Part shown: piece after piece, positions 7,093 to 23,497 of the stretch
Numbering within the stretch: position 1 is the first letter of the stretch
How the letters are laid out: each line of letters begins with the position of its first letter
Source: a virus
IMG/VR virus record: IMGVR_UViG_3300044611_002022
Coordinates: 1 to 23,497 of that record
Strand: one strand, 5' to 3'
Length of the DNA: 23,497 bases
Program-made: the position numbers and the translations under genes
Notes under the pieces: model-generated
What the model was told of the DNA's origin: nothing
Database searches by the model: none
The model's input: the letters and a program-made list of their open reading frames with translations, nothing else

Positions 7093-7094
7093 TT

Positions 7095-8888: not shown

Positions 8889-11026
8889 TGGAATATACTA
8901 AAGTAATTATTGATGACCTTTATTCTATAGATTTATCAGGAAAAGATATTATAATTCCTATTAGTTATGAAGTTATTGATATTAAAAATTTAAATCGTAG
9001 GTCAGGAAGTAAAACTAAAACTATTACAATACCTCGTACTTTAAAAAACGATAAAATATTTGGATTGGCTTTTTCAATTAATGGTAAAAATCAATTTGAT
9101 AAATATTTATCTCGAAAAATCAGAATTGAAAAAAATACTCAAATATTATTTAATGGTTTATGCCGATTAACTGATGTTACAATAGATACTATATCATTTT
9201 ATGCATTTGCTGAATTATCAAAATTAAAAGATTTATTTGGACAACTTACATTAAACGATTTAAATTTAGATGATTTAGACCATATTTACGATAAAACAAT
9301 TTTTGATACTTGGGATGGAATTTACCCAATATATGTTCAACCTGATTATTTTTATCCTGTAATTGATTATGGACAATTTCAAAATACTAATCCTTTAGCA
9401 AGTAGTGAAACTCCTTCTATAAATATAGTTGATATGTATCCTGCTTTATATTTAAAAAGAGCAATTGAGCAAATTTGTTTGGATAATGGGTACACTTTAA
9501 AAACTAATTTTTTTGATGATTCACAAACTGCAAAAATTTTAATTCCTTTTGTTAATGAACAATTTATTCATAGTGATGATTATTTAACTCGTGAATTTGG
9601 ATTGGATTCAAGAAATATTGGAACATATACATTACCCGATTCAGCAGGAATTTATATTATACCAACTGATAACGTTCTTTATGATAATTTATCTCAATTT
9701 TCAGGTGGAGAATATACTGCACAAGGAAACCAACGTATTAATATCTTTGCAAATTGCAGAATAGAAACACTTGGAACATATCCTGCAGGTTTTTATTTTC
9801 TTGTAAGCGTTTTAAAATATGATAATGTTTTAATGGATTGGATTTCATTAGGAGATAAAGTTGTTACAAATTCACTAAATCCTGCTGAATATATAAGTGT
9901 CGGTTTTAGAATTTCAGCAAATTTAAATAATGGAGAAAAAATAAAATTTATAGTAAGAAAATTTAATACTTCAGCACCAATAGAAATTAATATTATAAAT
10001 TCATTATTTGTAGTTTTACCTAATTATGTAGATATTAATATACGAAATATTTTTCCAAATGAATTTGTACAAATAGCACCTAATTTACCACCAATATCAC
10101 AAATTGATTTATTTAAGTGGTGTTATCAAATGTTTAATTGGGTAATATTTGTAGATGATGATAAAGGACAAATTGAAATTTCTACTTATGATTTATTTTA
10201 TCAAAATAATAGTCAAAAAGATTTCAGTCAAAAATTATCTTTAAATCCTAATCCTGTAATAAATTATCAACCAACTGATTTCAGTAGAAAATATGATTTT
10301 AAATACAAACACGATTCAGGAGATTTTTATTTATCACGTTATGATTTGCAACAAACTATAAATCAACCATTTCTATTTGGAGATGGAAGATATTATTTAA
10401 CTAAACAAGGAGATGCTACATTAATTGGCGAAGTTGGTTTTTCTCCTACAATTATTGAAAAATCTTTTAAAGGACATCCAAGTGATTTCATAAAAATTAC
10501 TACAATGTTAAATAATTCTGCACCAACAATTAAAAACACTCAACACGAACCAAGAATATTAATTAATGGAGGATTAGTTACAATAGATACTTTATCTGAA
10601 GGAACTATAGACCATATTTATATTGAGGAAGTTGGTGCAGTTACAAATTTACCATTATGTTATTTTCATAAACAAACATTCAATGAGGCTAATATAGATG
10701 CTTTTGATTTGAATTTATCTTTTTCAAGGCCTGATATAATTTTATATACAAATGGCAATTTAATAGATAAATATTATAAAAGTGCTATTAATTCATTATC
10801 GGTTTCTGCTCAATTGATTGCTTATTTTATGCTTGATAGTCAAGATATTACAGAATTAGATTTTTCACAAAATTGGTATATTTCTTATTTTAACGCTATC
10901 TTTAGATTAAATAAGATAGTTGATTATAATGCTAATTCATTAGGATTAACCAAAGTAGAACTAATAAATGTTGGTGTAATTGATACAATTGAAGATAATT
11001 ATCAAATAATAGAATCAAATAATTAA
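8888..11026 (+). CDS. Large tail / baseplate protein
   Basis: A 712-residue protein with no enzyme motif. The N-terminal region has GSKTKTITIPRTLKNDKIFG at 40-59, then a repeated strand pattern ending in SKLKDLFGQLTLNDLNL, an arrangement I associate with conserved baseplate-hub or distal-tail proteins of Bacteroidota siphophages. The middle (residues about 180-400) is beta-rich, and the segment ISQIDLFKWCYQMFNWVIFVDDDKG looks like the hub fold that contacts the tail tip. It is the largest gene of the three-gene group after the neck genes. Cell-wall cutting cannot be excluded but no lytic motif is seen. Confidence 0.55.
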   Translation: MEYTKVIIDDLYSIDLSGKDIIIPISYEVIDIKNLNRRSGSKTKTITIPRTLKNDKIFGLAFSINGKNQFDKYLSRKIRIEKNTQILFNGLCRLTDVTIDTISFYAFAELSKLKDLFGQLTLNDLNLDDLDHIYDKTIFDTWDGIYPIYVQPDYFYPVIDYGQFQNTNPLASSETPSINIVDMYPALYLKRAIEQICLDNGYTLKTNFFDDSQTAKILIPFVNEQFIHSDDYLTREFGLDSRNIGTYTLPDSAGIYIIPTDNVLYDNLSQFSGGEYTAQGNQRINIFANCRIETLGTYPAGFYFLVSVLKYDNVLMDWISLGDKVVTNSLNPAEYISVGFRISANLNNGEKIKFIVRKFNTSAPIEINIINSLFVVLPNYVDINIRNIFPNEFVQIAPNLPPISQIDLFKWCYQMFNWVIFVDDDKGQIEISTYDLFYQNNSQKDFSQKLSLNPNPVINYQPTDFSRKYDFKYKHDSGDFYLSRYDLQQTINQPFLFGDGRYYLTKQGDATLIGEVGFSPTIIEKSFKGHPSDFIKITTMLNNSAPTIKNTQHEPRILINGGLVTIDTLSEGTIDHIYIEEVGAVTNLPLCYFHKQTFNEANIDAFDLNLSFSRPDIILYTNGNLIDKYYKSAINSLSVSAQLIAYFMLDSQDITELDFSQNWYISYFNAIFRLNKIVDYNANSLGLTKVELINVGVIDTIEDNYQIIESNN

Positions 11027-11034
11027 AAAATAAA

Positions 11035-12441
11035 ATGGCAAAGAAAAAAATAAGTGCATTACCTATAGCAGGAAGTCTATTGGGTGCAGAAATAGTTCCA
11101 ATTGTACAAACAGGAACAACAAAACAAACAACGATTCAAGATATCGTTAATTTGGTAGAAACAGAAGGTGGAATTAATGGAAGTGGAACTGCGAATCGAA
11201 TTTCTAAATTTATAGATGCAAATACTATTGGAGATAGTTCTATTTCCGATGATTTAACTATTCTTCAAACGTATTCGCAAGAATCGGGAGGTAATGAAGG
11301 ATTAAAACTTGATTACGCAAACAGGTCCTATAAATTAGGAGAATTTGATTACAATGTAAATGGAACTATTTTTGAAGTCAATGATGATTTAAAATTTATT
11401 TTGACAAAATATTCAGGAAATAATGTTGGATTATATTTTGATTTTCTTAATAATGTTTATTCATTAGGAGATTTTGATTATATTTCTATAGGAACTGCAT
11501 ACGTTGTTGATTCATATAAGGCTTATACAAAATCAGAAGGTGGAATAAAAGGTTTAGGAATTGATTTTAACGAAAATGCTTATACTTTGGGTGTTCCCGA
11601 AGGAAACGATTATGTTTCGGGAGTTGTAGGTTTTTCAATGATTAATGAAATTATTACAATCGGCGATGGTTGGGCGAGTTCAACTGCTTTAAAATTTGTT
11701 GTCGATATTCCTTTAAATTTAATCAAAACTCAAACATCAGGATATGATTGTGGTTTAAAAGTTGATTTTGATGAAAATATTTATGCTATTGGAGATTATG
11801 CAAATGAAAGGAATACAGGAACATCGTTAATTATAGATGATTTGGTTGGAAAAATAAAAACACGATACAATAATACAGATTCGGGATTTTTTATTGACTA
11901 TGGAGATTATTCTACATCGTTTCAATTAGATTATAATCCAATTAATACAGGAAATTATATTCAATTGCCGAGAATAAATCAAGCAATTGGAAATTTAGCA
12001 GGAAATCAATCTTATTTTAATCACAATTTGTTTGCTTACAATCCGAAATATTATTTGCAATTTGGTCAATATTTACCATCAGAAGGAGATGGTGGAGCAT
12101 CATTACAAATTGTAATGACCGAATCGGGAGATTGGGGACAAACTGCAATTTCCTTATTAGGTTGGAATCCCGAAGAAGGATTTTTATTACAAAATGCAAA
12201 TATAATTAATTTGAACTCGCTTTCTCCCGATGGTGCAAAACAATGTCATATTTCATTAAACGGAACAGATGAAAGAATTAGTTTTAATACAAAGGCAGTA
12301 AATTTCGGACCATTAACAACAACTGAAATAAACAATATATTAAATCCTATAGATGGTGATGTTGCATACAATACAACATTGAACACTATTTGTTTCTATG
12401 ATGGAAGTTCTTGGAAAAAAGTAACTCATTCAGCGATGTAA
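11035..12441 (+). CDS. Tail fibre-like protein with internal repeats
   Basis: A 468-residue protein. The N-terminus KKKISALPIAGSLLGAEIVP at 3-22 followed by IVQTGTTKQTTIQDI matches the attachment end of many phage tail fibres. Residues about 83-300 carry degenerate repeats (see separate entry), and the C-terminus has the fibre/spike motif DGDVAYNTTLNTICFYDG near 440-457 then SSWKKV. It likely forms a trimeric shaft ending in a receptor-binding tip. It starts 8 nt after the preceding stop, behind an A-rich leader. The neighbouring 54-codon gene has its own promoter, so transcription of the tail block may end or weaken near here, although I see no terminator hairpin directly after it. Confidence 0.65.
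   Translation: MAKKKISALPIAGSLLGAEIVPIVQTGTTKQTTIQDIVNLVETEGGINGSGTANRISKFIDANTIGDSSISDDLTILQTYSQESGGNEGLKLDYANRSYKLGEFDYNVNGTIFEVNDDLKFILTKYSGNNVGLYFDFLNNVYSLGDFDYISIGTAYVVDSYKAYTKSEGGIKGLGIDFNENAYTLGVPEGNDYVSGVVGFSMINEIITIGDGWASSTALKFVVDIPLNLIKTQTSGYDCGLKVDFDENIYAIGDYANERNTGTSLIIDDLVGKIKTRYNNTDSGFFIDYGDYSTSFQLDYNPINTGNYIQLPRINQAIGNLAGNQSYFNHNLFAYNPKYYLQFGQYLPSEGDGGASLQIVMTESGDWGQTAISLLGWNPEEGFLLQNANIINLNSLSPDGAKQCHISLNGTDERISFNTKAVNFGPLTTTEINNILNPIDGDVAYNTTLNTICFYDGSSWKKVTHSAM
11281..11934 (+). repeat. Degenerate protein repeats in the fibre gene
   Basis: Residues about 83-300 contain four to five divergent units of roughly 40-65 residues. Each has a core of a Gly, a strand ending in D-F/Y, an N-x-Y pair and L/I-G: GLKLDYANRSYKLGEFDY, then GLYFDFLNNVYSLGDFDY, GLGIDFNENAYTLG, GLKVDFDENIYAIGDY and a last decayed GFFIDYGDY unit. 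DNA identity between units is low, so the repeats are old. The pattern fits a beta-helical or stacked-strand shaft. Confidence 0.6.
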
Positions 12442-12472
12442 TTTGTAAATAATTAAAAATAAAGTATCTTTG
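12442..12472 (+). promoter_or_regulatory. Bacteroidota-type promoter for the 54-codon gene
   Basis: TTTG at 12442-12445 and TATCTTTG at 12465-12472 match the Bacteroidota consensus TTTG-(about 19)-TAnnTTTG with a spacer of exactly 19 nt. The ATG of the small gene begins 3 nt after the box, so transcription would start at or next to the start codon. Confidence 0.75.
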
Positions 12473-12475
12473 ATT

Positions 12476-12640
12476 ATGACCAACGAACAAATATTTGCTA
12501 TTATTAGTCAAGGATTAAATAAAGCAAACAAATCAGGAGTTTTTGATTTAAAAGAATCGGCATCAGTTGTTTCAGCATTATCTGAACTTCAAAAAGTTTT
12601 AGATTCTTTATCTCCTAAAGAGGAAATGAAAAAAGTATAA
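12476..12640 (+). CDS. Small conserved-looking protein (54 aa) upstream of the tape measure gene
   Basis: A 54-codon gene. The protein is helical: NEQIFAIISQGLNKANKSG at 3-21, then VFDLKESASVVSALSELQKVL, resembling a short protein I recall from Flavobacterium-type phages. No membrane segment or catalytic motif is seen. It has its own promoter immediately upstream (no untranslated leader expected) and a strong terminator starting 4 nt after its stop, so it forms a single-gene transcript. Role unknown; a small tail-assembly or regulatory factor is a guess based on the neighbouring tape measure gene. Confidence 0.7.
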   Translation: MTNEQIFAIISQGLNKANKSGVFDLKESASVVSALSELQKVLDSLSPKEEMKKV

Positions 12641-12643
12641 TTG

Positions 12644-12673
12644 AATAAGGCCTGTAAAATGGCCTTATTTTTT
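12644..12673 (+). terminator. Rho-independent terminator before the tape measure gene
   Basis: AATAAGGCC at 12644-12652 pairs perfectly with GGCCTTATT at 12661-12669 around an 8-nt loop, and is followed by a T run to 12673. The 9-bp stem contains GGCC. It ends the 54-codon transcript 13 nt before the tape measure ATG at 12686, and no promoter fits in between, so tape measure expression probably relies on read-through. Confidence 0.8.
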
Positions 12674-12685
12674 AAATTTAAAACG

Positions 12686-15085
12686 ATGGCAGATAGCAAA
12701 ACGATTATTTATAGTGTTGATATTGAATATGGGAATCTTGTAAAGAACTCCGAGGATATTAAAACAAAAATAAAGGATTTAACAATTGCTCAAACAAATT
12801 TAGATACAAGCAGTAAAGAAAATCAGAAAACTTATCGTGAAAATACTACTCAATTAAAAATGCTTCAAAGTCAATTGAAGTTAAATGAAACAGAAGTAAA
12901 TAAATTCACAGAATCAGAAAAAGCAAATACAGATGCTACAAATTTCAACAATAATTCAATAAAACAAAACAGAGAATTATTAAAAGGATTAACTGCAGAA
13001 TATATTAAACTTCAAAATCCCACTGAAGAACAAACCAAAAAAATAAAAGCGTTAAGTGATACTTTAAAAGCACAAGAAGGTGCCATTGGCGATACTCGTA
13101 GAAGTGTAGGTAATTATAAAGAATCTTTTCAATCAGCTATTGGACAATTTCCTGCATTTCAAAAAGGAATTGAAGGAGTTTCTAATGGTTTCAAAGCATT
13201 ATCTGCAGGAAATCCATTTACGCTTATATTGATGGCATTAACACCATTGATACAATCATTTTTAAAATTAGAACCTGTAACAAATGCAATAAATGGAGTT
13301 TTTGAAGGATTAACTTCAGCAATTACCACTATTGTTTCATCAATAAAAAACTTTTTTGATTTAATGTCATCAGGTGCAGGATTTTTTGATTCAATTTCTC
13401 AAGCATTTGGTGGATTGGGTGGAAAAATGAAATCGGCAGCGATTGAAGGATATAATTTAGTTCAAGCATTAGATGATTTAGAAGATGCTGAAAGGTCAAA
13501 TCAAGCTTCTATGGCTAAAACTAATAGAGATGTGGCAATTCTCATTGCTCAATCTAAAGATAGGACTAAAACAGAACGAGAACGTATTGATTTATTAAAG
13601 GAAGCGAACCGATTAGAAGAAGAACAACTTAAAAAAGATTTAAATATAGCAAATACAAGAGTGGCCGTTACTGCTCACGCTTTAGCAGTTGCAATTCGTA
13701 CAGGAAAAGACCGAGATACTGCAGAGCAAAATTTAGCAGATGCTCAACAAAAACGATTTGAAGCAGAACAGGCTTCAGGAGTTCAAACAGAAAAAAATCA
13801 AGGCAGAATTAATGGTTTAATTCAATCAGAAGATGATTTGCGACAAAAAGGACTTGATAAACAAAAGAAAAGAATTGAAGAAAATAAGAAAATTTTAGAT
13901 GATTTTGTTAAAAAAGTTACTGAATCATTAAATGAAGAACAAAAAATAAGAGTAGAACAATTTGCAAATGATAAATTACTTACTCAAATGGCCAATGATG
14001 AAAAATTATTGTCTTTAAAAGAATCATTTGCAAATGGAACACTTACAGAAAAACAATACCAAGACCAAATTAAAGAACAACAATTAGCATTTTATGATGC
14101 ACAAATAGCCGACCTTGAAGAATATAATGGTATTACAGGTGCATACGATGATGAAATCACTAAATTAAAAATTGATAAACAAAATGCAGTTACTGATAAT
14201 AAAATAGTAAATATTGAAAAACAGAAAGAATTAGATGCTCAAAAATTTGAATTAGATTTAGAATATGCTACAATAACTGCACAAACAGACCAAGAAAAAA
14301 GGGACCAAGAAATTTTAAATATAGAAGCTCAAAATGCTCAAATATTAAAAAACACTAAATTAACTGAAGAACAAAAGCGAAATGAGATAGCAAAAAATGC
14401 TAAAGCAATTGAAGAAATTGAAAAGGCATCTACTAAAGCAAGAATTGCTAATATTATGCAATTAGCAAATGTAATGGGCCAAATATCAGAATTATTAGGA
14501 AAAAATACTGAAGAAGGAAAAGCTTTTGCAGTTGCTCAAACTATTATTAGCACATACGCTTCTGCACAACAAGCCTATGCATCTCAAATAATTCCCGGCG
14601 ACCCAACTTCTCCTGTTCGTGGTGCTATTTTAGCAGGATTAGCTATTATTCAAGGATTAAAAAGAGTGAGAGAAATAACTGCAATTGAAGTTCCAAAACC
14701 AACACCTCCACCTCCACAAAAAACTGAAGGATTTGCCGAAGGTGGATTAGTAGGATTTGCAAGTGGTGGATTATCAGGAACTAAAATTACTTCAGGAATG
14801 GGAATACCAATAAGAAGGAGAAATGGAGATAATTTATTAGCAACCGTAAAAACAGGAGAAGTTATTTTAAATCAAAAACAACAAGCGATGCTTGGTGGTT
14901 CAAGTACTTTTTCTCGAATTGGTGTTCCGGGATTCGCTAATGGTGGAATGATTCTTCCTGATATAACAAGTCCTAATTTTGATTTAATGGAATCATTTAG
15001 AAATATGCAATTAGTAGTGAGTGCAGTTGAAATCACAAATGTACAGAACAGATTAAAGGTAATGGAAGATACTACATCATTATGA
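12686..15085 (+). CDS. Tail tape measure protein
   Basis: A 799-residue protein that sets tail length. From the N-terminus: a coiled-coil region (about 20-135), the motif RRSVGNYKESF at 138-148 typical of Bacteroidota tape measures, hydrophobic segments at about 176-245 (NPFTLILMALTPLI, then SAITTIVSSI), a long charged coiled coil (about 260-600) and a Gly-rich C-terminal part with FAEGGLVGFASGG at 683-695 and LATVKTGEVILN. The start is ATG 12686: an in-frame TTG at 12641 and ATG at 12659 lie within the terminator hairpin and add unlikely residues. It overlaps the next gene by 4 bp (ATGA). The protein has no visible lytic domain. Its low copy number per virion fits limited read-through. Confidence 0.9.
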   Translation: MADSKTIIYSVDIEYGNLVKNSEDIKTKIKDLTIAQTNLDTSSKENQKTYRENTTQLKMLQSQLKLNETEVNKFTESEKANTDATNFNNNSIKQNRELLKGLTAEYIKLQNPTEEQTKKIKALSDTLKAQEGAIGDTRRSVGNYKESFQSAIGQFPAFQKGIEGVSNGFKALSAGNPFTLILMALTPLIQSFLKLEPVTNAINGVFEGLTSAITTIVSSIKNFFDLMSSGAGFFDSISQAFGGLGGKMKSAAIEGYNLVQALDDLEDAERSNQASMAKTNRDVAILIAQSKDRTKTERERIDLLKEANRLEEEQLKKDLNIANTRVAVTAHALAVAIRTGKDRDTAEQNLADAQQKRFEAEQASGVQTEKNQGRINGLIQSEDDLRQKGLDKQKKRIEENKKILDDFVKKVTESLNEEQKIRVEQFANDKLLTQMANDEKLLSLKESFANGTLTEKQYQDQIKEQQLAFYDAQIADLEEYNGITGAYDDEITKLKIDKQNAVTDNKIVNIEKQKELDAQKFELDLEYATITAQTDQEKRDQEILNIEAQNAQILKNTKLTEEQKRNEIAKNAKAIEEIEKASTKARIANIMQLANVMGQISELLGKNTEEGKAFAVAQTIISTYASAQQAYASQIIPGDPTSPVRGAILAGLAIIQGLKRVREITAIEVPKPTPPPPQKTEGFAEGGLVGFASGGLSGTKITSGMGIPIRRRNGDNLLATVKTGEVILNQKQQAMLGGSSTFSRIGVPGFANGGMILPDITSPNFDLMESFRNMQLVVSAVEITNVQNRLKVMEDTTSL

Positions 15086-15327
15086 ACATAGAAAAAGAAT
15101 TTTACGAACGCATTAATAATAAATTTGGCGAATGTTCCAAATTGGCTTATTATTTAGCAGAAAAATGTGCATTGACTACATCTGATTTAGAAAGATTCTT
15201 AATAAGAAGTGAAGTTGAAGAACAAATTGAAAAAGGAAAAAAATCAAAAATGATGATTTATGCAGATATTGCTGAAAAATATTGTAAATCAATACATTCG
15301 GTAATATATATTGTAAAAAAAATCTAA
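15082..15327 (+). CDS. Small HTH-like protein, possible regulator
   Basis: An 81-residue basic protein translationally coupled to the tape measure gene (ATGA). It is helical; the last part, YADIAEKYCKSIHSVIYIVKK at 60-80, has the spacing of a helix-turn-helix of the type in small terminase or sigma-like proteins (I-A..Y..S...V..I). The stop is directly followed by the inverted repeat and promoter at 15328-15373. A DNA-binding regulator of that site is therefore plausible but is inference; a minor tail role is the alternative. Confidence 0.5.
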   Translation: MNIEKEFYERINNKFGECSKLAYYLAEKCALTTSDLERFLIRSEVEEQIEKGKKSKMMIYADIAEKYCKSIHSVIYIVKKI

Positions 15328-15373
15328 TTGTAAAATGATTACAAAAATTAAATTTTAATTATAATTAAATTTG
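15328..15373 (+). promoter_or_regulatory. Inverted-repeat promoter of the protease-capsid operon
   Basis: A 17-bp inverted repeat TTGTAA-AATGA-TTACAA at 15328-15344 is followed after exactly 21 nt by TAAATTTG at 15366-15373, a -7 box of the Bacteroidota type. There is no TTTG at the usual -33 place. The ATG of the protease gene begins 4 nt after the box. The same arrangement, with identical spacing, precedes the portal gene, which suggests that a protein binding the repeat replaces the -33 contact. Confidence 0.7.
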
Positions 15374-15377
15374 TTAT

Positions 15378-16463
15378 ATGGAAATCTATAATTTATTAAT
15401 AAATAAAGACATTGGTATAGATAAAGGAGATTTATCTTCTGAATATGTGCGTAATGAAATCCTAAAAGCACAAAATCAAGGTGCCAAAGAAATTCGTTTA
15501 ATTATCAATTCAAAAGGAGGAGATGTTTACGAAGGTTTTTCTATTTACAATGATTTAAAAGATTGTGGCTTAAAAATTACTGCTTACATTCACGGATTTT
15601 GTGGTTCAATTTCAACATTAATAGCATCAAGTGCTGAATATGTAGAAATGAGTGAAACTGCTCAATATATGATACACAATTCTTCAGGTGGTGCATCAGG
15701 AAATGCTAAAGACCTTGAAGCAACTGCAGTAGCTTTAAGACAAATTGATGAAATTTTAGCAACAAATTATTCTAAAAAAACAGGAAAAACTATTGATGAA
15801 TTAAAAGCATTAATGGAAACAACTACATATATGAGTCCAAATGATGCAAAAAATTTAGGATTTATTGATGCAGTAAGATTACCAATATCAGCTTTCGGAA
15901 AATTTAATATAAAAACAAAAATGGACAATAATTTTAAAAACAAAATCGCTTCTGCTTTCAAGGCAATTGAAGAAGCATTAACAGGAAAAAATGAAAATCC
16001 TGTAAATTTTACTGAACCATTGGCCGATGGAAAAACTATCATATATGGCGATGGAGATTTAATGGTTGGTTCTGCAGTTTATACTGATGAATCAATGACT
16101 ACACCTGCACCTGAAGGGGAACACGCTTTATTAAGTGGTGTTTTTATCATTGTTGATGAAGCAGGAATTGTTCTTGAAATTCGTGAAATCGAAGATAAAG
16201 GAGAAGATGTAGTTGCAAAAGAAAATGCTGATTTAAAAGCAAAAGTTGCTGATTTAGAAGCAAAATTAGTTGCTGAAACAACTGAAAAAGAAGTATCTGC
16301 AAAAAATTTAGTAGAATTTAAAGCAAAAATGGATTCTGATTTTAAAAATTTGAAATCATTAATAACTTCTGCTGATGTAAAACAAAAAGATGACCAACGT
16401 AAAAATGTTGCTCCAAATCCTTTTGATGTAGTAGCTGAAAAAATGAAAAAACAATATTTGTAA
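15378..16463 (+). CDS. ClpP-like head maturation protease fused to scaffold
   Basis: A 361-residue fusion. Residues 1-180 form a ClpP-type serine peptidase: INSKGGDVYEG at 43-53, GFCGSIS at 73-79 (nucleophile Ser77) and YMIHN at 97-101 (His100). The third triad member is expected before YMSPNDA at 151-157 but Thr149 stands where Asp is usual, so it may use another residue. Residues about 210-265 form a small beta domain (GKTIIYGDGDLMVG), and about 275-335 a charged coiled coil, the likely scaffolding part. In the family this enzyme cleaves scaffold and capsid during head assembly. It starts an operon with MCP 21 nt downstream. It is leaderless if the promoter call is right. Confidence 0.85.
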   Translation: MEIYNLLINKDIGIDKGDLSSEYVRNEILKAQNQGAKEIRLIINSKGGDVYEGFSIYNDLKDCGLKITAYIHGFCGSISTLIASSAEYVEMSETAQYMIHNSSGGASGNAKDLEATAVALRQIDEILATNYSKKTGKTIDELKALMETTTYMSPNDAKNLGFIDAVRLPISAFGKFNIKTKMDNNFKNKIASAFKAIEEALTGKNENPVNFTEPLADGKTIIYGDGDLMVGSAVYTDESMTTPAPEGEHALLSGVFIIVDEAGIVLEIREIEDKGEDVVAKENADLKAKVADLEAKLVAETTEKEVSAKNLVEFKAKMDSDFKNLKSLITSADVKQKDDQRKNVAPNPFDVVAEKMKKQYL

Positions 16464-16484
16464 ACAATTAAAAAATAAAAAAAA

Positions 16485-17459
16485 ATGGATATTTTAGATA
16501 TAAACTTTGAATGGCCGGGGCAATTAGCCAATGAGGTATTTATTAAACCTACATTTTTAACTCCTGAAATGACTTCAGAATTTAGAGTTATAGTAGATAT
16601 TAAATCAAGAAGACAATTAGCATTAGACAATATTCTTTCAGGTGTGGTTCGCCCATCAGTTGGTTGTGGTCGTGATAATGCAGGAAATGTTATTGATATT
16701 TCAGACAAATGGATTGATGTTTGCGATTTAAAAATAAATTTAAATCAATGTGCTAAAAATTTACGTGCTACATTTATGGAGCAGTATTTGAGAACAGGTA
16801 ATGAAATTACTGATTTAGTGGGTACAAATGTTCAATCTTACATTTTAGAAAAAGTTACAAATGCAGTTCGTTTAGATGTTTATGATATCGCTTGGTTTGG
16901 AGATGAAAATTCTGCAAATGATACATTAGCATCTTGTACAGGAATGTGGGCGAGATTAATTCAAGGAGCAAATGCTTACGAAATTGAAAAAGTAACTATT
17001 CCTTCTACTTTAGGAGATTGTACTGCACTTAATGTTTTAAGAGATATGTACACTACTGCATCGCCATTATTGGACCAAATGCCTGAAGGAGATAAATATT
17101 TTGCTTTAACTCGTGAATTATACGACAATTATTTAACTTGTAGAGAAGAAGCTTGTGGTGGAGATAAAGCTTGGGATATGGTTGAAGCAGGTGCAAGAGT
17201 TTTAACTTTCAGAGGTATTCCTGTTTATAAAAAATCAAGATGGACTCAAATCATTTCAGCAAATGAATTGGGAAATACTCATCGTGCAGTTTATACATAC
17301 AAAGAAAATCTTGCAGTTGGTACAGATGCAGTATCTGATATGAATTCACTTGATTTTTACTATGTAAAACAAGACAAGATGAATTACATTGATGCAGAAT
17401 TTAAAATGGGTACTCAATATATCTATGGCGAATTGACTGTAATTGGTTTATCTTACTAA
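16485..17459 (+). CDS. Major capsid protein (HK97 fold)
   Basis: A 324-residue protein directly after the protease-scaffold gene, the standard place for the major head protein. It opens with FEWPGQLANEVFIKP at 8-22 and has the P-domain pattern of Bacteroidota capsid proteins, ending in AEFKMGTQYIYGELTVIGLSY. It is rich in Cys (VGCG, DVCD, NQCA, SCTG, DCTA, CREEAC), more than most HK97-fold proteins and perhaps used for metal or disulfide stabilisation. The leader 16464-16484 is nearly all A, which is known to favour initiation in Bacteroidota where Shine-Dalgarno sites are not used. It is followed, 20 nt later, by the tail protein gene with a strong SD site. Confidence 0.88.
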   Translation: MDILDINFEWPGQLANEVFIKPTFLTPEMTSEFRVIVDIKSRRQLALDNILSGVVRPSVGCGRDNAGNVIDISDKWIDVCDLKINLNQCAKNLRATFMEQYLRTGNEITDLVGTNVQSYILEKVTNAVRLDVYDIAWFGDENSANDTLASCTGMWARLIQGANAYEIEKVTIPSTLGDCTALNVLRDMYTTASPLLDQMPEGDKYFALTRELYDNYLTCREEACGGDKAWDMVEAGARVLTFRGIPVYKKSRWTQIISANELGNTHRAVYTYKENLAVGTDAVSDMNSLDFYYVKQDKMNYIDAEFKMGTQYIYGELTVIGLSY

Positions 17460-17462
17460 TTT

Positions 17463-17470
17463 AAAGGAGG
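17463..17470 (+). promoter_or_regulatory. Perfect Shine-Dalgarno site of the major tail protein gene
   Basis: AAAGGAGG lies 9 nt before the ATG at 17480 in a purine-only leader. No other gene in the window has such a site. In Bacteroidota ribosomes the anti-SD is normally sequestered (bS21, bS18, bS6), so an SD this strong is unusual and may be a control element. Confidence 0.8.
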
Positions 17471-17479
17471 AAAAAAAAT

Positions 17480-18046
17480 ATGCCTTGTGGAATTATAAGT
17501 GGATTAGCTTGTGCAACTTGTGAAGATTTACAGGTTGTCGGTGGAATTAAAGCGAAAAATATCTATGTAGGTTCATTATCAGATTTAACTGATAGTGGAT
17601 TTACTGCAGATTCTGAAGGTGTTGTTACTGCTATTGGATTGCAACCTTATAACTATCTTTTCAAATTTTGTGCTAAAACAAAAAGTGCAGGAGCAGGACA
17701 AGAAATGGTTATTGGAGAAAACAATATCAAATCTTTTAATCAAACGATTACAGGAAAATTTCAGCAACAAACACAAGACGCTAAAAACGTTTGGGATAAT
17801 TTGAAGTTATTAGATGATTTATTTGTCATCATTGAAAAAACTGATGGTACATTTGAACTTTATGGTAAAGTGGCAGGATTACAAATTACTGCTTTAACTA
17901 AAGCTACAGGAGTATTAATCGGAGATGATAATGCTTTCAACGTAACATTAGGACAACCAAATGGTGGAGAAACATCATTGGCTCCTGATTTCTTAAAAAC
18001 AGATTACCAAACTACTAAAAATTATCTTGAAGGATTAATTTCATAG
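17480..18046 (+). CDS. Major tail protein (tail tube subunit)
   Basis: A 188-residue protein with the N-terminus MPCGIISGLACATCEDL followed by GGIKAKNIYVGSLSDL, the pattern of the Bacteroidota siphophage tail-tube protein (Cys-rich start, then GGIK and a strand). The C-terminal half, DGTFELYGKVAGLQI near 122-136 and FNVTLGQPNGGET near 153-165, fits the tube beta-sandwich. It is third in the head operon, 20 nt after the capsid gene, and has the only strong Shine-Dalgarno site of the window. It ends in TAG, the only TAG stop seen here, 19 nt before a strong terminator. The tail-tube subunit must be made in large amounts, which fits the SD. Confidence 0.78.
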   Translation: MPCGIISGLACATCEDLQVVGGIKAKNIYVGSLSDLTDSGFTADSEGVVTAIGLQPYNYLFKFCAKTKSAGAGQEMVIGENNIKSFNQTITGKFQQQTQDAKNVWDNLKLLDDLFVIIEKTDGTFELYGKVAGLQITALTKATGVLIGDDNAFNVTLGQPNGGETSLAPDFLKTDYQTTKNYLEGLIS

Positions 18047-18065
18047 TTCAAGTTGGGTTAATAGG

Positions 18066-18100
18066 AATGGTGTCGGGGTAACTTGACACCATTTTTTTTT
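18066..18100 (+). terminator. Strong Rho-independent terminator after the head operon
   Basis: AATGGTGTC at 18066-18074 pairs perfectly with GACACCATT at 18085-18093 around a 10-nt loop, followed by a run of T to 18100. Seven nucleotides of the loop and 3' arm (AACTTGA, 18080-18086) are also complementary to TCAAGTT at 18048-18054, so an alternative, antiterminator-like fold is possible. Confidence 0.88.
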
Positions 18101-18126
18101 GTATTTGTAATTTTTTACTATATTTG
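18098..18126 (+). promoter_or_regulatory. Bacteroidota-type promoter of the glycosyltransferase cassette
   Basis: TTTG at 18098-18101 and TATATTTG at 18119-18126 are separated by 17 nt, within the range described for Flavobacterium promoters. The upstream box uses the last T residues of the preceding terminator, and the ATG at 18130 begins 3 nt after the -7 box. Confidence 0.7.
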
Positions 18127-18129
18127 AAT

Positions 18130-18306
18130 ATGTCAATCGAAGAAATAAAACAATATTTTGACCAAAATGGTGGTAAAAGTTTACCTCATAATGATAAACA
18201 TTGGAATATTTTGTTTGATATGTATTTTAAAGCAACTAAAAACAAACTTTCTATAGGTTGTGGAGGTTGTTATCAAGTTGGATATAAATGGCTACAAAAA
18301 CAATAA
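18130..18306 (+). CDS. Small CxxC protein (58 aa) at the head of the cassette
   Basis: A 58-residue protein starting with MSIEEIKQYFDQNGGKSLP and ending with IGCGGCYQVGYKWLQKQ; the CGGC pair could bind a metal or form a disulfide. Start: an in-frame TTG at 18124 is part of the promoter box, so ATG 18130 is chosen. It overlaps the following gene by 19 bp. Function unknown. As first gene behind the promoter it would be made in the largest amounts in the cassette. Confidence 0.6.
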   Translation: MSIEEIKQYFDQNGGKSLPHNDKHWNILFDMYFKATKNKLSIGCGGCYQVGYKWLQKQ

Positions 18307-18977
18307 TTCATCAAATTTATTTTAACGAACAAACAAAGGGATTTATTAATCCTATTTGTATTCCTTATGATAATATTTGGTTTGAAGGTAAAAAAACTCA
18401 ACCTTGTTTTGAAAATCATATAATTTCAGAACTTATTGATAAACAGGCACATAAAGAATCTGATTATTTTGGTGTTTTTTCTTGGCAATTTGAATCTAAA
18501 AATCCATATCGTTTAGAAAATTTTAATGATGATATGAAAAGATTTCCAAAATACGATTGTTATACTTTTTATAAATTACACACTCAACCTAATGTTTGGC
18601 GAGTTGCTGAAAATTGGCATAAAGGTATAATTGAAACTGCTCAACACATTTTTAATCGTTTTAAACCATCAATAAATATTAGTCGAATAAATACACCAAC
18701 AATATACCAAAATGCTCATATAACGAAGATAAACATCTATGAGGATTATGTAAATACTTGGTTAAATCCATTAATTGAAATAATGGAAGATAAAAATGAT
18801 ATTTGGTTACAAAATAGATTATATCAAGATACAAAATATAAATCAGGCCGTTTTTCGCCTGAAATATTAGAAAAATTAACAGGAGTTCCATATTATCCAA
18901 TGCACACTTTTATTTGTGAAAGGTTTTTTTCTACTTATATGGCAATTAATAGACATTCAATCAAACATTTATGCTAA
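18288..18977 (+). CDS. Putative glycosyltransferase-related protein
   Basis: A 229-residue protein of no certain family. The N-terminal IIHQIYFNEQTKGFI, then ENHIISELI and DYFGVFSWQFESK at 59-71, and the C-terminal PYYPMHTFICERFFSTYM are arranged like some GT-A-type sugar-transfer proteins in glycan clusters, in which a ...H-x-F-x-x-E-R-F... segment closes the domain. No clear DxD motif is visible. Support comes mainly from its place among glycosyltransferase genes. It overlaps the next gene by 7 bp. An accessory or acceptor-recognition role is also possible. Confidence 0.45.
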   Translation: MATKTIIHQIYFNEQTKGFINPICIPYDNIWFEGKKTQPCFENHIISELIDKQAHKESDYFGVFSWQFESKNPYRLENFNDDMKRFPKYDCYTFYKLHTQPNVWRVAENWHKGIIETAQHIFNRFKPSINISRINTPTIYQNAHITKINIYEDYVNTWLNPLIEIMEDKNDIWLQNRLYQDTKYKSGRFSPEILEKLTGVPYYPMHTFICERFFSTYMAINRHSIKHLC

Positions 18978-19756
18978 AAATAAGAGTAGTAAGCAATTAT
19001 GCTGAAAGTTGGAGATTACATTCTGAAATATTAAGACAATTTGCACCTGCAAACATTGTTTTAAATTTTGGATTTGTTGAAGATAATTCTTATAATATTT
19101 TATTTATTTTAAATAATTGGGATGGCGAAATAAAAGTAAAACCTGAATATGTTTTTGTTTTAGCACAAGAACCTTCTTGGTCTTTAAATTTTAAAGATTG
19201 GAATGATAAATGTGCTGAATTTATTTCTCCTACTAATAACCAATTGCCATTAATGTTTAATTGGACCGGCCTTGATTTTGAAGAAGCAATTAATTTAAAA
19301 ATTGAAAAAACCAAAAAATGTAGTTTTATTGTTGCAAAACACAAACCATTAGAAGGAACTTTATACGATTTTAGAAATAAATTAGTTGATTTAATAATTG
19401 CAAGTGATTTAGACATAGATATTTATGGTAAAGGATGGAATATTTCTGATTCAAGATATAAAGGAGAAATTGAACATAAAAAAGATGGTTTAATAGATTA
19501 TCATTCATCAATTTGTATAGAAAATTGTGAGCAAGAATTTTATGTAACTGAAAAATTTTGGGATGCTATTATATGTGATACATTTCCAATACCATATCAA
19601 GCGATTAAAAATGAACCAATAAAAGCAATTAAAGCAATTATGGAATCTGTAGCGATTGGCGATGGTTATGCTTATACAATGCCTCATAAACAATACTATT
19701 TCCACGAATTAAACATATTTAGATATATTCAATCAAAAGTTAATCTATTTATCTGA
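18971..19756 (+). CDS. GT10 fucosyltransferase-like protein
   Basis: A 261-residue protein whose C-terminal half has the GT10 (alpha-1,3/1,4-fucosyltransferase) signature: SICIENC at 180-186, YVTEKFWDAI at 191-200 and TFPIPYQA at 204-211, corresponding to the family FENS...YVTEK...vPvy segment that holds GDP-fucose. VLAQEPSW at 63-70 fits the N-terminal domain. The enzyme would add fucose, or a related sugar from a GDP donor, to a glycan in the cytoplasm. It overlaps its neighbours on both sides (7 bp and TGATG), so it is within the cassette operon. The C-terminal end is short compared with typical members. Donor and acceptor are unknown. Confidence 0.65.
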   Translation: MLKIRVVSNYAESWRLHSEILRQFAPANIVLNFGFVEDNSYNILFILNNWDGEIKVKPEYVFVLAQEPSWSLNFKDWNDKCAEFISPTNNQLPLMFNWTGLDFEEAINLKIEKTKKCSFIVAKHKPLEGTLYDFRNKLVDLIIASDLDIDIYGKGWNISDSRYKGEIEHKKDGLIDYHSSICIENCEQEFYVTEKFWDAIICDTFPIPYQAIKNEPIKAIKAIMESVAIGDGYAYTMPHKQYYFHELNIFRYIQSKVNLFI

Positions 19757-20412
19757 TGCCAATTTGTATAACATTCGGAACAAAGCAATACCAAAATGCA
19801 CTTGATAGGTTGTTTAAATCTGCCAATAAGTATATGTACACTTTGACTTTTAATGTTTCATCAATTACAGAATTAATAAAAGCATATCCGAAGCATTTTC
19901 AATCTGATAGGGGATTTGGTTGGTGGTTATGGAAACCATATTTAATTAATTCGGTTTTAAATTCAATGCAAGAAGGAGATTATTTGATTTATTTAGATTC
20001 AACAATTGAAATTTTAAAAAATCCTGAAATATTATTAGAAGATTATAAATCAGATATAATTTTGTTTAATAATGGTCAAATACACCAAGAATATTGTAAA
20101 ACAGAATGTTATTATGAAATGGGTTATAATTCGCCATTAAATCAATTACAAGCAAATGGTGCTATTCAAATTTATAGGAAATCTGATTTTTCATTAATGT
20201 TTACTGAAGAATATTTCCTTTGGTGTACAAAATTAGATTTAATTAATGATGAACACGATAAAACAATTCAGAATAATAAATTTAAAACACATAGGCACGA
20301 CCAATCAATTTTAACTAATTTGGCAGTTGGTTATGAAATACCTTTATTTACATCTCCTTGCCAATGGGGTATGAAAGAAAATGCTTATTTTAACCATCAC
20401 AGACAACTATGA
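19756..20412 (+). CDS. GT-A-type glycosyltransferase-like protein
   Basis: A 218-residue protein beginning MPICITFGTKQYQNAL. The segment GFGWWLWKP at 53-61 followed by GDYLIYLDS at 74-82 is the pattern of a GT-A-like family seen in polysaccharide gene clusters, where the LDS/LDT acidic residue is the metal ligand. Later parts (QANGAIQIYRKSDFS, HRHDQSILTNL) also fit the acceptor side, ending in HRQL. It is coupled to both neighbours by TGATG/ATGA overlaps. Substrate unknown. Confidence 0.6.
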   Translation: MPICITFGTKQYQNALDRLFKSANKYMYTLTFNVSSITELIKAYPKHFQSDRGFGWWLWKPYLINSVLNSMQEGDYLIYLDSTIEILKNPEILLEDYKSDIILFNNGQIHQEYCKTECYYEMGYNSPLNQLQANGAIQIYRKSDFSLMFTEEYFLWCTKLDLINDEHDKTIQNNKFKTHRHDQSILTNLAVGYEIPLFTSPCQWGMKENAYFNHHRQL

Positions 20413-20585
20413 TAATTAAAGGGATATTAAAAAAAGATAAAAATGGATTTTATTTAGAAACTAAATATAAATTCAATGGTAAAATGGGATTAAATGATGA
20501 ACAAATAGAAATACTTGATACATTAGTAAATAAAAAAATAAAAATTGAATATGAAACAATTAACAGAATTGGCAATCGCAAATAA
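20409..20585 (+). CDS. Small unknown protein (58 aa) in the cassette
   Basis: A 58-residue lysine-rich protein starting with an ATGA overlap and ending 35 nt into the next gene (ATG 20551). It has no motif I recognise (MIIKGILKKDKNGFYLETKY at the start). It is listed because the overlap type and codon use match the other genes. It could be a translation-coupling leader for the methyltransferase or a small partner protein. Confidence 0.5.
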   Translation: MIIKGILKKDKNGFYLETKYKFNGKMGLNDEQIEILDTLVNKKIKIEYETINRIGNRK

Positions 20586-21090
20586 GGCTCAACAGAAACC
20601 TTATGAATTTCAAAAATTGCTTGAAATGTTAGATGTAATGACATCTAAAAAAATTGCAGTCGAAATAGGAAGTTATGATGGTGGATGCTTATATGCATAT
20701 CGTGAAATGTTCGGCAAAACGATTTCTATTGACCTAAATCAACGTTCAAACATTGAAGGTATAGATTATATCATTGGAGATAGTAAAACGTTGTATAACG
20801 ATTTAAAATCGAAATTAGGAGGTAAAAATACCAAAATAGATTTTTTAATGATTGACGGAGACCATTCTTTTGAAGGCGTAAAGTCTGATTTTGAAATTTA
20901 CCATAAATTGGTTAAAAAAGGTGGTATTATAGCTTTTCACGATGTTAAAGAAACTCAAATGCATACCGAACTTAATTGTTTTGTATCTGATTTTTGGAAT
21001 AAAATTAGATTGGATGAAAGATTTGAAGCAATTGAATTTTTAGATTCAGTAAATGATTGGGGTGGAATTGGTGTTTTAATCATAAAATAA
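20551..21090 (+). CDS. Class I SAM-dependent methyltransferase
   Basis: A 179-residue protein with the class I fold: VEIGSYDGG at 37-45 (SAM glycine loop), SIDL at 59-62 (Asp61 for the ribose), IDGDHSFEGV at 101-110 and GGIIAFHD at 124-131. The IDGDHS...GG-x-I-x-x-H-D pattern is that of the Methyltransf_24 / cephalosporin-hydroxylase-like group, common in sugar and glycan clusters, where it O-methylates a sugar. DNA methylation is not suggested: there is no DPPY or NPPY motif. The start is ATG 20551, since a TTG six nt upstream is not needed. Overlaps with neighbours place it in the operon. Confidence 0.72.
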   Translation: MKQLTELAIANKAQQKPYEFQKLLEMLDVMTSKKIAVEIGSYDGGCLYAYREMFGKTISIDLNQRSNIEGIDYIIGDSKTLYNDLKSKLGGKNTKIDFLMIDGDHSFEGVKSDFEIYHKLVKKGGIIAFHDVKETQMHTELNCFVSDFWNKIRLDERFEAIEFLDSVNDWGGIGVLIIK

Positions 21091-21707
21091 TGGATATTAT
21101 CATCACTTGTAAAAATAGACTTCAGCATTTAAAAAAATGTATTTCATCAATTCCTAAAGAAAATTTAATTGATGTTTTTGTTGTTTGCTATGGAGATGAA
21201 ATGGCATTTAGATGGTGTAAACAAGAAAAATTGAAGTGTATTTTATATCCGGCCCGAGATTTTCATTTATCAAAAGCGAGAAATATTGGTGTTACTAATA
21301 CTTTTGATGAATGGTTATTTTTTGCTGATGCTGATACAATATTTGATGCTAATTTTTTCAAATCATTAAAATTAGAAACAAATAATTATTATACAGGAGA
21401 ACCACAATGTTCAGGTAATTGTATTGTTGAAAGAAAACATTTTAAAGGTTATGATGAAGCGATAAAAGGATATGGTGGCGAAGATACAGACCTTTATATT
21501 ACATTGACTATACAAGGTTTAAAGAAATGCCACATTGAATTAATGAGATATTTACCTCATTCTGATTTTGATAGGACAAGAAACTACGGAAATTCGAAGA
21601 AATGGCATCAACAATTGCATAATATTAAGTATTTGATGCAAAAACATCCTCACGAGTTCATTTTTCCTGAATATATTTCACCCGATTTAAAACATTTTTT
21701 TTTATGA
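21090..21707 (+). CDS. GT2/GT27-like glycosyltransferase
   Basis: A 205-residue GT-A enzyme. MDIIITCKNRLQHL at 1-14 starts the Rossmann core, KARNIG at 62-67 binds the donor, FADAD at 78-82 is the metal-binding DxD (Asp80, Asp82) and GYGGEDTDL at 127-135 is the C-terminal motif typical of GalNAc/galactosyl-transferase-like proteins. The start is ATG 21090 (TAATG overlap with the methyltransferase stop), not the in-frame TTG at 21057. It would transfer a sugar to a glycan or protein acceptor. It overlaps the membrane protein gene by 4 bp. Confidence 0.78.
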   Translation: MDIIITCKNRLQHLKKCISSIPKENLIDVFVVCYGDEMAFRWCKQEKLKCILYPARDFHLSKARNIGVTNTFDEWLFFADADTIFDANFFKSLKLETNNYYTGEPQCSGNCIVERKHFKGYDEAIKGYGGEDTDLYITLTIQGLKKCHIELMRYLPHSDFDRTRNYGNSKKWHQQLHNIKYLMQKHPHEFIFPEYISPDLKHFFL

Positions 21708-21982
21708 TGATTCAAGAATCTTTTCTCATATCGTTATTGTGTTATGGTTTTTTTCAAGCAACACGATTCGGAAATATTTTGTATTTCATTCAACGATTTT
21801 CGCTTACATTACCCGAATTTTTCGGTAAACCAATATGCCTTTGTTTAACTTGTATGTCATCAATTCACACTATTTTTTGGCATTATTGTTTTTGGGGATT
21901 TGAATGGACAATAATACCTCAAATTTTAATTGTAGCATCAATAAATCATATAATAGGATTAATTTCAGCACAATATGAATAA
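21704..21982 (+). CDS. Small membrane protein with CxxC motif
   Basis: A 92-residue hydrophobic protein with two or three likely membrane helices: FLISLLCYGFF near 7-17, HTIFWHYCFWGF near 55-66 and IIPQILIVASINHIIGLI near 70-87. CLTC lies at 46-50 in the loop between the helices. It is the only clear membrane protein of the cassette and could anchor or localise the glycosyltransferases, or help export a glycan intermediate. It overlaps both neighbours (ATGA before, 8 bp after). No family recognised. Confidence 0.6.
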   Translation: MMIQESFLISLLCYGFFQATRFGNILYFIQRFSLTLPEFFGKPICLCLTCMSSIHTIFWHYCFWGFEWTIIPQILIVASINHIIGLISAQYE

Positions 21983-22700
21983 ATTAGCAGGAATTTGGAA
22001 CGTTTGGGATGGCGATGAACATTTAAGAAAGTCAATTGAACAAATTAAAGAACATTTAGACTTTGTAATTGTTGTTTATCAGAACATTTCAAATACAGGA
22101 GAAAAATATTTTCCTGAATTACCACACGATTTAATAGATATGTCGTTTCATTATCAACCAAATTTATTGGATTCTGCTCAAAATAATGAAGAAAACAAAC
22201 GTAATATAGGCCTATCATTAGCAAAACAAATTAAATGCACTCATTTTATTCATCTTGATTGCGATGAAATGTATTTTAATGAAGATTTTAAACGTGCTAA
22301 AGAAGAATGTTATAAAAACAATTTGGATGCTTCATTTTGCTCATTAAAAACCTATTATAAATATCCTACAAAGCAATTATTTCCTGAAGAACCTTATTTT
22401 GTGCCATTTATTCATAAAATATATCCACAGACTAAAATGTGCTTTGATAAAAAATATCCTGCATTTGTGGACCCAACACGAAGAACAAATACTTATATCA
22501 ATCATAAATACATAGATTGGTTAAAAATGCACCATTATTCTTTTGTAAGAAAAGATATTGAAAGGAAAATGAGAAATTCTTCAAGTTCATCAGCATTTTC
22601 TAATAATAGTGTAACTTGGGAAGAATTTGATAAAACAGGTAAGATGATACATTTTAAGGATTTTATTACCATTGATGTTGAAAATTACTTCAATTTGTAA
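21975..22700 (+). CDS. Glycosyltransferase, GT2-like
   Basis: A 241-residue GT-A protein. LAGIWNVWDGDEHLRKSI at 4-21 and FVIVVYQNIS at 30-39 form the first strands, KRNIGLSLAK at 75-84 is a donor-binding helix and HLDCDEMY at 93-100 is the metal-binding DxD-type motif (Asp95, Asp97). The rest (HHYSFVRKDIERKM) resembles acceptor-site helices of sugar transferases that act on long glycans. It is the last cassette gene; its Leu-TAA end forms the left arm of the inverted repeat before the portal gene. Sugar and acceptor unknown. Confidence 0.7.
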   Translation: MNKLAGIWNVWDGDEHLRKSIEQIKEHLDFVIVVYQNISNTGEKYFPELPHDLIDMSFHYQPNLLDSAQNNEENKRNIGLSLAKQIKCTHFIHLDCDEMYFNEDFKRAKEECYKNNLDASFCSLKTYYKYPTKQLFPEEPYFVPFIHKIYPQTKMCFDKKYPAFVDPTRRTNTYINHKYIDWLKMHHYSFVRKDIERKMRNSSSSSAFSNNSVTWEEFDKTGKMIHFKDFITIDVENYFNL

Positions 22701-22740
22701 ATAAATTACAAGTTAAAAGTCTTATAATAAAGTAAATTTG
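22695..22740 (+). promoter_or_regulatory. Inverted-repeat promoter of the portal gene
   Basis: TTGTAA-ATAAA-TTACAA at 22695-22711, then 21 nt, then TAAATTTG at 22733-22740 and ATG at 22746. Repeat arms, 5-nt loop, 21-nt spacing and -7 box are identical to the protease promoter at 15328-15373; only spacer bases differ. The left arm overlaps the stop codon of the upstream gene. Confidence 0.7.
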
Positions 22741-22745
22741 TATAT

Positions 22746-23497
22746 ATGGAAATGACTCAATTATCCGATAATTTTTTCTTTTTTCAGGCAAAAGCACCTG
22801 CTGATTTAACTATTTTTAATCAAATAGATGATTTTCAAAGAAAAATTATTAGTTATGGTAAATTCAATAATTATCCACAAGAGATAATAAAGGCCATACA
22901 ATCATCGCCAATCGCTAATTCTTGCGTTGAAACCCACGCTAAATTCCTTTATGGAGATGGATTATATTTTGATACTCCTGAAGGACAAACTGAAGAATTT
23001 ACAAATAAATTAAAACAAATATTTAATGAGTCATTTTATCAGACTATATGTTATGATATGGCATATTTTGAAGCACTTGGTTTAATTCAAAAATGGGATT
23101 TAAATGGTTATTTAACAAGTGTTAAGCAACAAGATTTTTCTACAATTCGTTTAGGTATTCCAAATCTTGATGATTTTGAAATTACTTATGCTATGATTTC
23201 AAGCAATTGGCAAGAAGAACAAAAATTAAAACGTTATAGAGCAATAAAAATAGATTTATACAACGATATTGATACTAAAGTTAAAATTGGTTCATATAAT
23301 GAAGGAAATAAAGTAGATGAATTTCAAAAATGGTCGGGAACATTAGAATATATTAGAAGATATAAACCGGGCCAAGTATATTATTCTCAACCAAAATTTG
23401 CTTCAGCCTTAAAATGGATTTATGCCGATGGACAAATTCAAAATTTTCACGCAAATAATGTAGATAATTCTTTTGCTCCTGCATTTATAGTAAAAGT
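22746..23497 (+). CDS. Portal protein, N-terminal part (cut by the window end)
   Basis: At least 250 residues from ATG 22746, open at the window edge. KIISYGKFNNYPQEII and SSPIANSCVETHAKFLYGDGLYFD near 55-78 are the pattern of Bacteroidota phage portals (YG...N.YP..., then a nearly invariant S-P-x-x-x-x-C/S). It continues with a wing-like domain and, at the edge, ALKWIYADGQIQNFHANNV. In the virion a 12-mer of this protein forms the DNA entry pore that docks terminase and, later, the neck. It has its own promoter, so it is not made with the capsid operon as usual. Confidence 0.82.
   Translation, partial: MEMTQLSDNFFFFQAKAPADLTIFNQIDDFQRKIISYGKFNNYPQEIIKAIQSSPIANSCVETHAKFLYGDGLYFDTPEGQTEEFTNKLKQIFNESFYQTICYDMAYFEALGLIQKWDLNGYLTSVKQQDFSTIRLGIPNLDDFEITYAMISSNWQEEQKLKRYRAIKIDLYNDIDTKVKIGSYNEGNKVDEFQKWSGTLEYIRRYKPGQVYYSQPKFASALKWIYADGQIQNFHANNVDNSFAPAFIVK

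Follow-up and report, generated by a model that had tools for sequence, protein, structure and literature searches.

At CRP-type promoters, the class II and class I positions of the regulator are close to centres near -42 and near -63, respectively. In phage Mu, Mor binds as a dimer to an element of 16 bp that is centred at -43.5 and contains two inverted repeats of 5 bp, and replaces the -35 contact (PMC4390567). For Bacteroidota, the TAnnTTTG box of Flavobacterium psychrophilum promoters has been placed at -12 to -5, and only 5.5% of the mRNAs of that species are leaderless (PMC9723704); in B. thetaiotaomicron, 5' UTRs of less than 10 nt make up only about 3.7% of the total, and attempts to identify a -33 motif in Flavobacterium johnsoniae were unsuccessful (both PMC7366714). 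Gene timing in Bacteroidota phages is poorly known, their hosts use an unusual primary sigma factor, and our literature searches found no paper on late promoters of these phages. We analysed a 23,497-nt stretch of viral DNA, hereafter referred to as the window, in which a palindrome at about -42 precedes a Bacteroidota-type -7 box at two sets of head genes.

A two-copy promoter element before the head operons

Two copies of an element of the form TTGTAA-N5-TTACAA-N21-TAAATTTG lie in the window, one before the protease/capsid operon and one before the portal gene. In each, the palindrome is followed after 21 nt by the -7 box and then, 4 nt (copy 1) or 5 nt (copy 2) further on, by an ATG, at 15378 and 22746, respectively. 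The features referred to below are as follows:

12465-12472, + strand: contrast -7 box TATCTTTG, no dyad; TTTG 19 nt upstream, ATG 3 nt downstream
15082-15327, + strand: gene for an 81-aa protein with a C-terminal helix-turn-helix (HTH), candidate activator; stop codon abuts dyad 1
15328-15344, + strand: dyad 1, TTGTAAAATGATTACAA (TTGTAA-AATGA-TTACAA), predicted dimer-binding site centred at -42; no variation in any of its 12 arm columns across 38 protease loci
15345-15365, + strand: spacer 1, 21 nt, length fixed and sequence diverged; 5 of 21 columns invariant versus 12 of 12 in the arms
15366-15373, + strand: TAAATTTG, Bacteroidota sigma-A -7 box (consensus TAnnTTTG); all six specified positions invariant
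15378-16463, + strand: head maturation (ClpP-like) protease; PF00574, 3.6e-29; phrog_94 head maturation protease, 5e-47
16485-17459, + strand: second gene of the element-1 unit, for a probable major capsid protein; 25.8% identity to a BS-TP3 gene annotated XkdG/major capsid
17480-18046, + strand: third gene of the element-1 unit, for a 188-aa protein with strong conservation (about 85%) among relatives
18063-18096, + strand: terminator-like hairpin at the end of the element-1 unit, stem of 15 bp with a T run; relatives have a similar hairpin in this position
18119-18126, + strand: contrast -7 box TATATTTG, no dyad; TTTG upstream, ATG 3 nt downstream
22695-22711, + strand: dyad 2, TTGTAAATAAATTACAA (TTGTAA-ATAAA-TTACAA), centred at -42; 9 of 12 arm columns invariant in 33 close portal loci
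22712-22732, + strand: spacer 2, 21 nt; 0 of 21 columns invariant in the close portal loci
22733-22740, + strand: TAAATTTG, -7 box of copy 2, with invariant box positions
22746-23495, + strand: portal protein, running off the window; phrog_11226 portal, 1.6e-22

The first-pass annotation had described these two copies as sharing palindrome, loop, 21-nt spacing, -7 box and a nearby ATG, and we found all of this at the positions listed; the left arm of copy 2 overlaps the Leu and stop codons of the gene before it. Both the analytic expectation for the whole element (2.3e-5 copies, against the two present) and dinucleotide shuffles of the window, all of which lacked it, put the element far above chance. 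The exact palindrome is expected 0.013 times per window from such shuffles, and 0 of 300 shuffles had two. The further claim that nothing similar occurs elsewhere in the window agrees with a weight-matrix scan, in which both sites scored 19-20 bits and the runner-up 10.5. At the level of sequence, these data and the comparisons below show that the promoter element is real, that it has two copies of fixed geometry, and that within this phage family it is specific to the head operons.

Concerning the Bacteroidota sigma-A features, the element copies have the TAnnTTTG -7 box and lack TTTG near -33. As had been noted, neither copy has a TTTG -33: none lies 17-23 nt upstream of either -7 box, and three near-complete relatives likewise lacked TTTG near -33 at both of their copies. 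By comparison, a TTTG -33 is present at both of the remaining intergenic -7 boxes that stand just before window genes (12465 and 18119). The missing TTTG nevertheless carries little weight on its own, because Flavobacterium johnsoniae yielded no -33 motif either. On the + strand from 5000 to 23497, the only terminator-like hairpins are those at 12643-12670 and 18063-18096, which together with the -7 boxes at 12465 and 18119 delimit transcription units; a search of Rfam gave no match in the window. Several conserved genes at 18288-22700, some of which look by eye like glycosyltransferases, come between head genes that are usually adjacent, with the capsid genes on one side and the portal gene on the other, and relatives show synteny over this block.

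By the -12 to -5 rule, +1 would coincide with the first base of the protease start codon and lie one nucleotide ahead of the portal start codon, and the dyad centre would lie at -42 in both window copies. The protease and portal mRNAs are probably leaderless, starting at or within 1-3 nt of the ATG. The four -7 boxes found just before genes in the window (12465-12476, 15366-15378, 18119-18130 and 22733-22746, each range including the distance to the start codon) all stand 3-5 nt before an ATG, or 3-7 nt in relatives, and in four genomes a reversed control motif was so placed at 0, 0, 0 and 2 genes. The mRNAs of this phage family may generally be leaderless.

Conservation in related phages and a coupled change in a sister clade

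A motif scan of IMG/VR returned 59 contigs, most of which had the element 4-5 nt before the same protease gene. Relatives were then fetched by protein and not by motif to avoid circularity, which provided an unbiased control. Among protease loci retrieved in this way, down to about 59% identity, the element was present in 38/38, and across their 16 distinct sequences 12/12 arm, 6/6 box and 5/21 spacer columns were invariant (Fisher, 2e-5). The 33 close portal loci (21 distinct sequences) had 9/12 invariant arm, 6/6 box and 0/21 spacer columns (Fisher, 6e-6); all 33 kept N21 and the -7 box, the right arm was mostly TTGCAA, and the left arm was degenerate (TTGGAA or TTATAA) in three loci. Throughout the main clade, TAnnTTTG was invariant in every distinct copy and the N21 spacing was constant. 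Near-complete, circularly permuted relatives (~33-35 kb) contained exactly two strong sites (19-21 bits), the next scoring at most 15. The argument from conserved geometry despite differing spacer bases, originally made from two copies, thus extends to the family, throughout which the same two late-type operons are preceded by an element whose spacing does not vary and whose arms and box are conserved, although the spacer bases have diverged. The reading withstood the refuting condition that the annotation had named, a lack of further copies before late genes in related genomes.

These comparisons bear on whether two AT-rich intergenic regions are simply alike by chance or by recent shared ancestry. 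The 28% G+C content of the window is in keeping with that explanation, but the very small number of copies expected, the conservation of arms and box against a diverged spacer at both operons, and proteases that are only about 60% identical refute it, and we give it practically no weight. Other exact-pattern matches in IMG/VR (L001 type, L013 type and single contigs) had no related gene after them or lay inside open frames, and were set aside as chance or unrelated occurrences. One relative, G008, and no other, has a third, weaker dyad-like site, TTGTAAAAATTTTGCAT, 15 nt before TACATTTG (L062:14369-14385, - strand; oriented position 20983 in G008).

Retrieval by portal protein also reached a sister clade, with a portal ~40% identical, whose portal site reads (G/T)TGTACA-N5-TGTACAA followed, after 20 nt (21 in one contig), by TAAATTTG. 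On the sole contig spanning both genes, the protease site is TTGTACGATATCTGTACAA-N20-GAAATTTG, the latter being its -7 box. The sister palindrome, TTGTAC-N7-GTACAA with mostly N20, is therefore found at both sites, and its centre stays near -42, a 19-bp dyad with N20 corresponding to the 17-bp dyad with N21 of the main clade. That both copies changed half-site together is what a trans-acting dimeric factor would lead one to expect, and the coupled change as read from these sequences implies one. The first-pass proposal of a promoter class recognised by a dimeric protein thereby gains support from two sides, the family-wide recurrence and this sister pair with its co-changed palindrome. Other contigs with the sister-type pattern carried it mostly inside coding frames. 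In the sister contigs L177-L182, a structured portal leader of 61 nt separates TAAATTTG from the ATG; it contains an 11-bp hairpin with three compensatory pair changes (three distinct sequences), enclosed in a 5-bp outer stem that does not vary.

In some sister contigs, additional DNA separates the upstream gene from the dyad, but the distance from dyad to box is unchanged, which ties the dyad to the promoter. This is hard to reconcile with the inverted repeat acting as RNA, for example as a 3' hairpin of the upstream transcript that serves as a terminator, stabiliser or processing site. In favour of such a role, the repeat starts at or beside the stop codon of the preceding gene, the single strands do pair, weakly (-2.3 to -5.2 kcal/mol), and the TTGTAA/TTGCAA combination keeps a G-U pair. 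However, the stem is A/T-rich with no T run after it and was not reported by the terminator scan, and N21 to the -7 box is exact in every main-clade copy. In the main-clade contigs L163 and L165, moreover, the upstream gene runs on across the left arm without loss of the right arm or of N21. We regard a function in RNA as very improbable, and the fixed spacing argues for a dyad that works as part of the promoter.

The candidate regulator and a possible counterpart in phage BS-TP3

The first-pass annotation missed the candidate regulator encoded next door to element 1, as well as the probable leaderless mRNAs and the parallel architecture of phage BS-TP3. The 81-aa gene was found in this phage family only and abuts the element throughout the main clade; its alignment found 40 loci, and element 1 follows in 39/39 of those that extend far enough. 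Identity of the protein is 67-77% among main-clade relatives, and that of the protease between the same groups is about 60-67%. In the sister clade, the same slot holds a homologue with 37% identity (L191:2609-2860), in which the second HTH (recognition) helix is changed. The AF2 model of this homologue (pLDDT 90) has five helices and a C-terminal HTH (helices 58-68 and 73-81), its structural matches are mostly DNA-binding HTH chains, all with modest Z, and the model suggests the Mor/C-type layout, in which a helical N-terminal part precedes the HTH.

The AF2 model of the window protein itself is moderate (pLDDT 74), and a fold search with it gave no convincing match. No significant Pfam, PHROG or PDB match was obtained for the 81-aa protein; Pfam, including the Mor model PF08765, returned no family at E values of up to 10 when searched with the window protein and with one of its main-clade relatives, and the Mor match was absent for the sister homologue too. 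When compared with Mu Mor/C by hhalign, residues 61-80 aligned with the Mu HTH at a probability of 2%, which is not significant. A phmmer match to designed PPR repeats was rejected as an artefact of repetition. By sequence, the protein is not a recognised member of the Mor/C family and we do not claim membership for it; among candidates for the regulator of the element, it is the most likely.

The isolated, distantly related Bacteroides phage BS-TP3 has a homologous protease-capsid-portal block. Right after the gene in the tape-measure position it encodes gp61, an HTH protein of 78 aa that carries a Mor-domain annotation (HTH_11, 9e-5; Mor, 0.002, which does not reach the curated cut-off), to which the 81-aa profile gave a weak match (hhalign, 16%, E 0.0016, 50 columns). 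Upstream of the BS-TP3 protease lies a palindrome, TACTGACA-N5-TGTCAGTA, and a genome search allowing up to 3 mismatches found one further copy only, before the ParB/terminase operon. Both palindromes (TAYTGACA-N5-TGTCAGTA; L272:1406-1474 and L299:1939-2007) are exactly 40 nt before TACCTTYG (TACCTTTG or TACCTTCG), and the terminase copy extends to about 14-bp arms. Their centre at -63 is 21 bp, or two helical turns, upstream of -42. We take BS-TP3 as parallel support from an isolated phage, consisting of a single genome. A gp61 homologue (36%; L300:40709-40951) occurs near a diversity-generating retroelement in Mu-like p00-type Bacteroides phages and is annotated as Mor-domain in related Bacteroides phages; two regions of Hankyphage p00 were checked and contained no clear palindrome of this kind.

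The same promoter class and geometry could also be served by a different dimeric factor, such as an HTH protein of the early region or a host regulator. Small HTH proteins are encoded in the early region of relatives, including a 62-aa XRE-type protein, the dyad has a geometry that is common among bacterial operators, and the sister clade could have another host, with another regulator. In the assembled part of G008, however, which carries both elements, no XRE gene was noticed, and the position of the 81-aa gene beside element 1 wherever readable, the changed recognition helix of its sister homologue and the HTH/Mor-like gene in the same slot of BS-TP3 all point to the 81-aa protein instead. 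We therefore consider another factor unlikely.

In principle, a palindrome placed at -42 could serve as the operator of a repressor that silences the head genes until replication, for instance, or during lysogeny; palindromes near promoters often are such operators, and this position would also permit blocking. Here, though, the dyad is upstream of the core promoter, where the -33 contact is missing, and is held at a rigid distance from the -7 box, as polymerase contact would need. Furthermore, no integrase-type gene was noticed among the predicted proteins of relatives, and a protease-alignment scan of 84,980 genomes detected no prophage of the family, only unrelated Lachnospiraceae proteases, so that repression appears quite improbable and an activating role is preferred. 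With neither a prophage nor a host genome found, we only infer the host, and the family would comprise uncultured phages of Bacteroidota-type bacteria. Among named relatives, Flavobacterium phages are the nearest for terminase (38.7%), and Bacteroides phage BS-TP3 is the nearest for capsid and protease.

A proposed promoter class and its comparison with known systems

Taken together, we think it likely that the element represents an activator-dependent phage promoter class for head genes, with the 81-aa HTH protein as its most likely regulator. The core would be a promoter of the host primary Bacteroidota sigma-A type reduced to the -7 box (TAnnTTTG); a dimeric phage protein would bind the palindrome at about -42, where the -33 contact would otherwise be, and the bound dimer would recruit RNA polymerase in a class-II-like geometry. 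The class would drive both the protease-capsid unit and the portal unit. The 81-aa protein is encoded at the end of the tail-gene block, upstream of element 1, and finishing the upstream operon would thereby switch on head synthesis. Binding, the positive sign of the regulation, the takeover of the -33 contact and the late timing are what we infer from the arrangement and conservation of these sequences.

A broader version, towards which we lean only slightly, is that Bacteroidota tailed phages share an undescribed late switch, made of a tiny HTH activator encoded after the tape-measure gene, palindromes at -42 or -63, and sigma-A promoters with a -7 box only; in the present family, the head mRNAs would be leaderless, and activator and site would have changed together between the clades. 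The analysis yields a defined cis-element that can be tested, a candidate for its regulator, and half-sites of two natural specificities (TTGTAA and TTGTAC), and the isolated BS-TP3 is a phage in which the parallel system can be tested directly. Such a class would supply compact activator-promoter pairs for gene control in Bacteroidota.

Compared with Bacteroidota sigma-ABfr (sigma-A) promoters, the element shares the TAnnTTTG -7 box but has no TTTG -33, carries a phage-specific dyad, and has its start codon 0-3 nt from the predicted start. BS-TP3 likewise has a syntenic small HTH protein after the tape-measure gene and a palindrome present twice at a constant distance from the box, one copy being before the homologous protease/capsid operon; it differs in the palindrome itself, in N40 rather than N21 and a centre at -63 rather than -42, in the 18-25 nt between box and ATG, and in a second copy that precedes ParB/terminase and not the portal gene. 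With respect to CRP-type promoters, the element centre near -42 resembles class II and that of BS-TP3 near -63 resembles class I, whereas no CRP-like protein is involved here and the candidate is an unrelated small HTH protein. The closest functional analogue is Mu Mor/C. Unlike in Mu, the core here is of the Bacteroidota sigma-A and not the sigma-70 type, the mRNA is probably leaderless, and the 81-aa protein has no Pfam Mor match and aligns weakly over the HTH only. What the systems share, by analogy, is the promoter layout, here a repeat centred at -42 with N21 fixed and no TTTG -33, and the combination of a small HTH protein with an inverted repeat near -42/-43.5, as for Mor at Pm and C at the late promoters.
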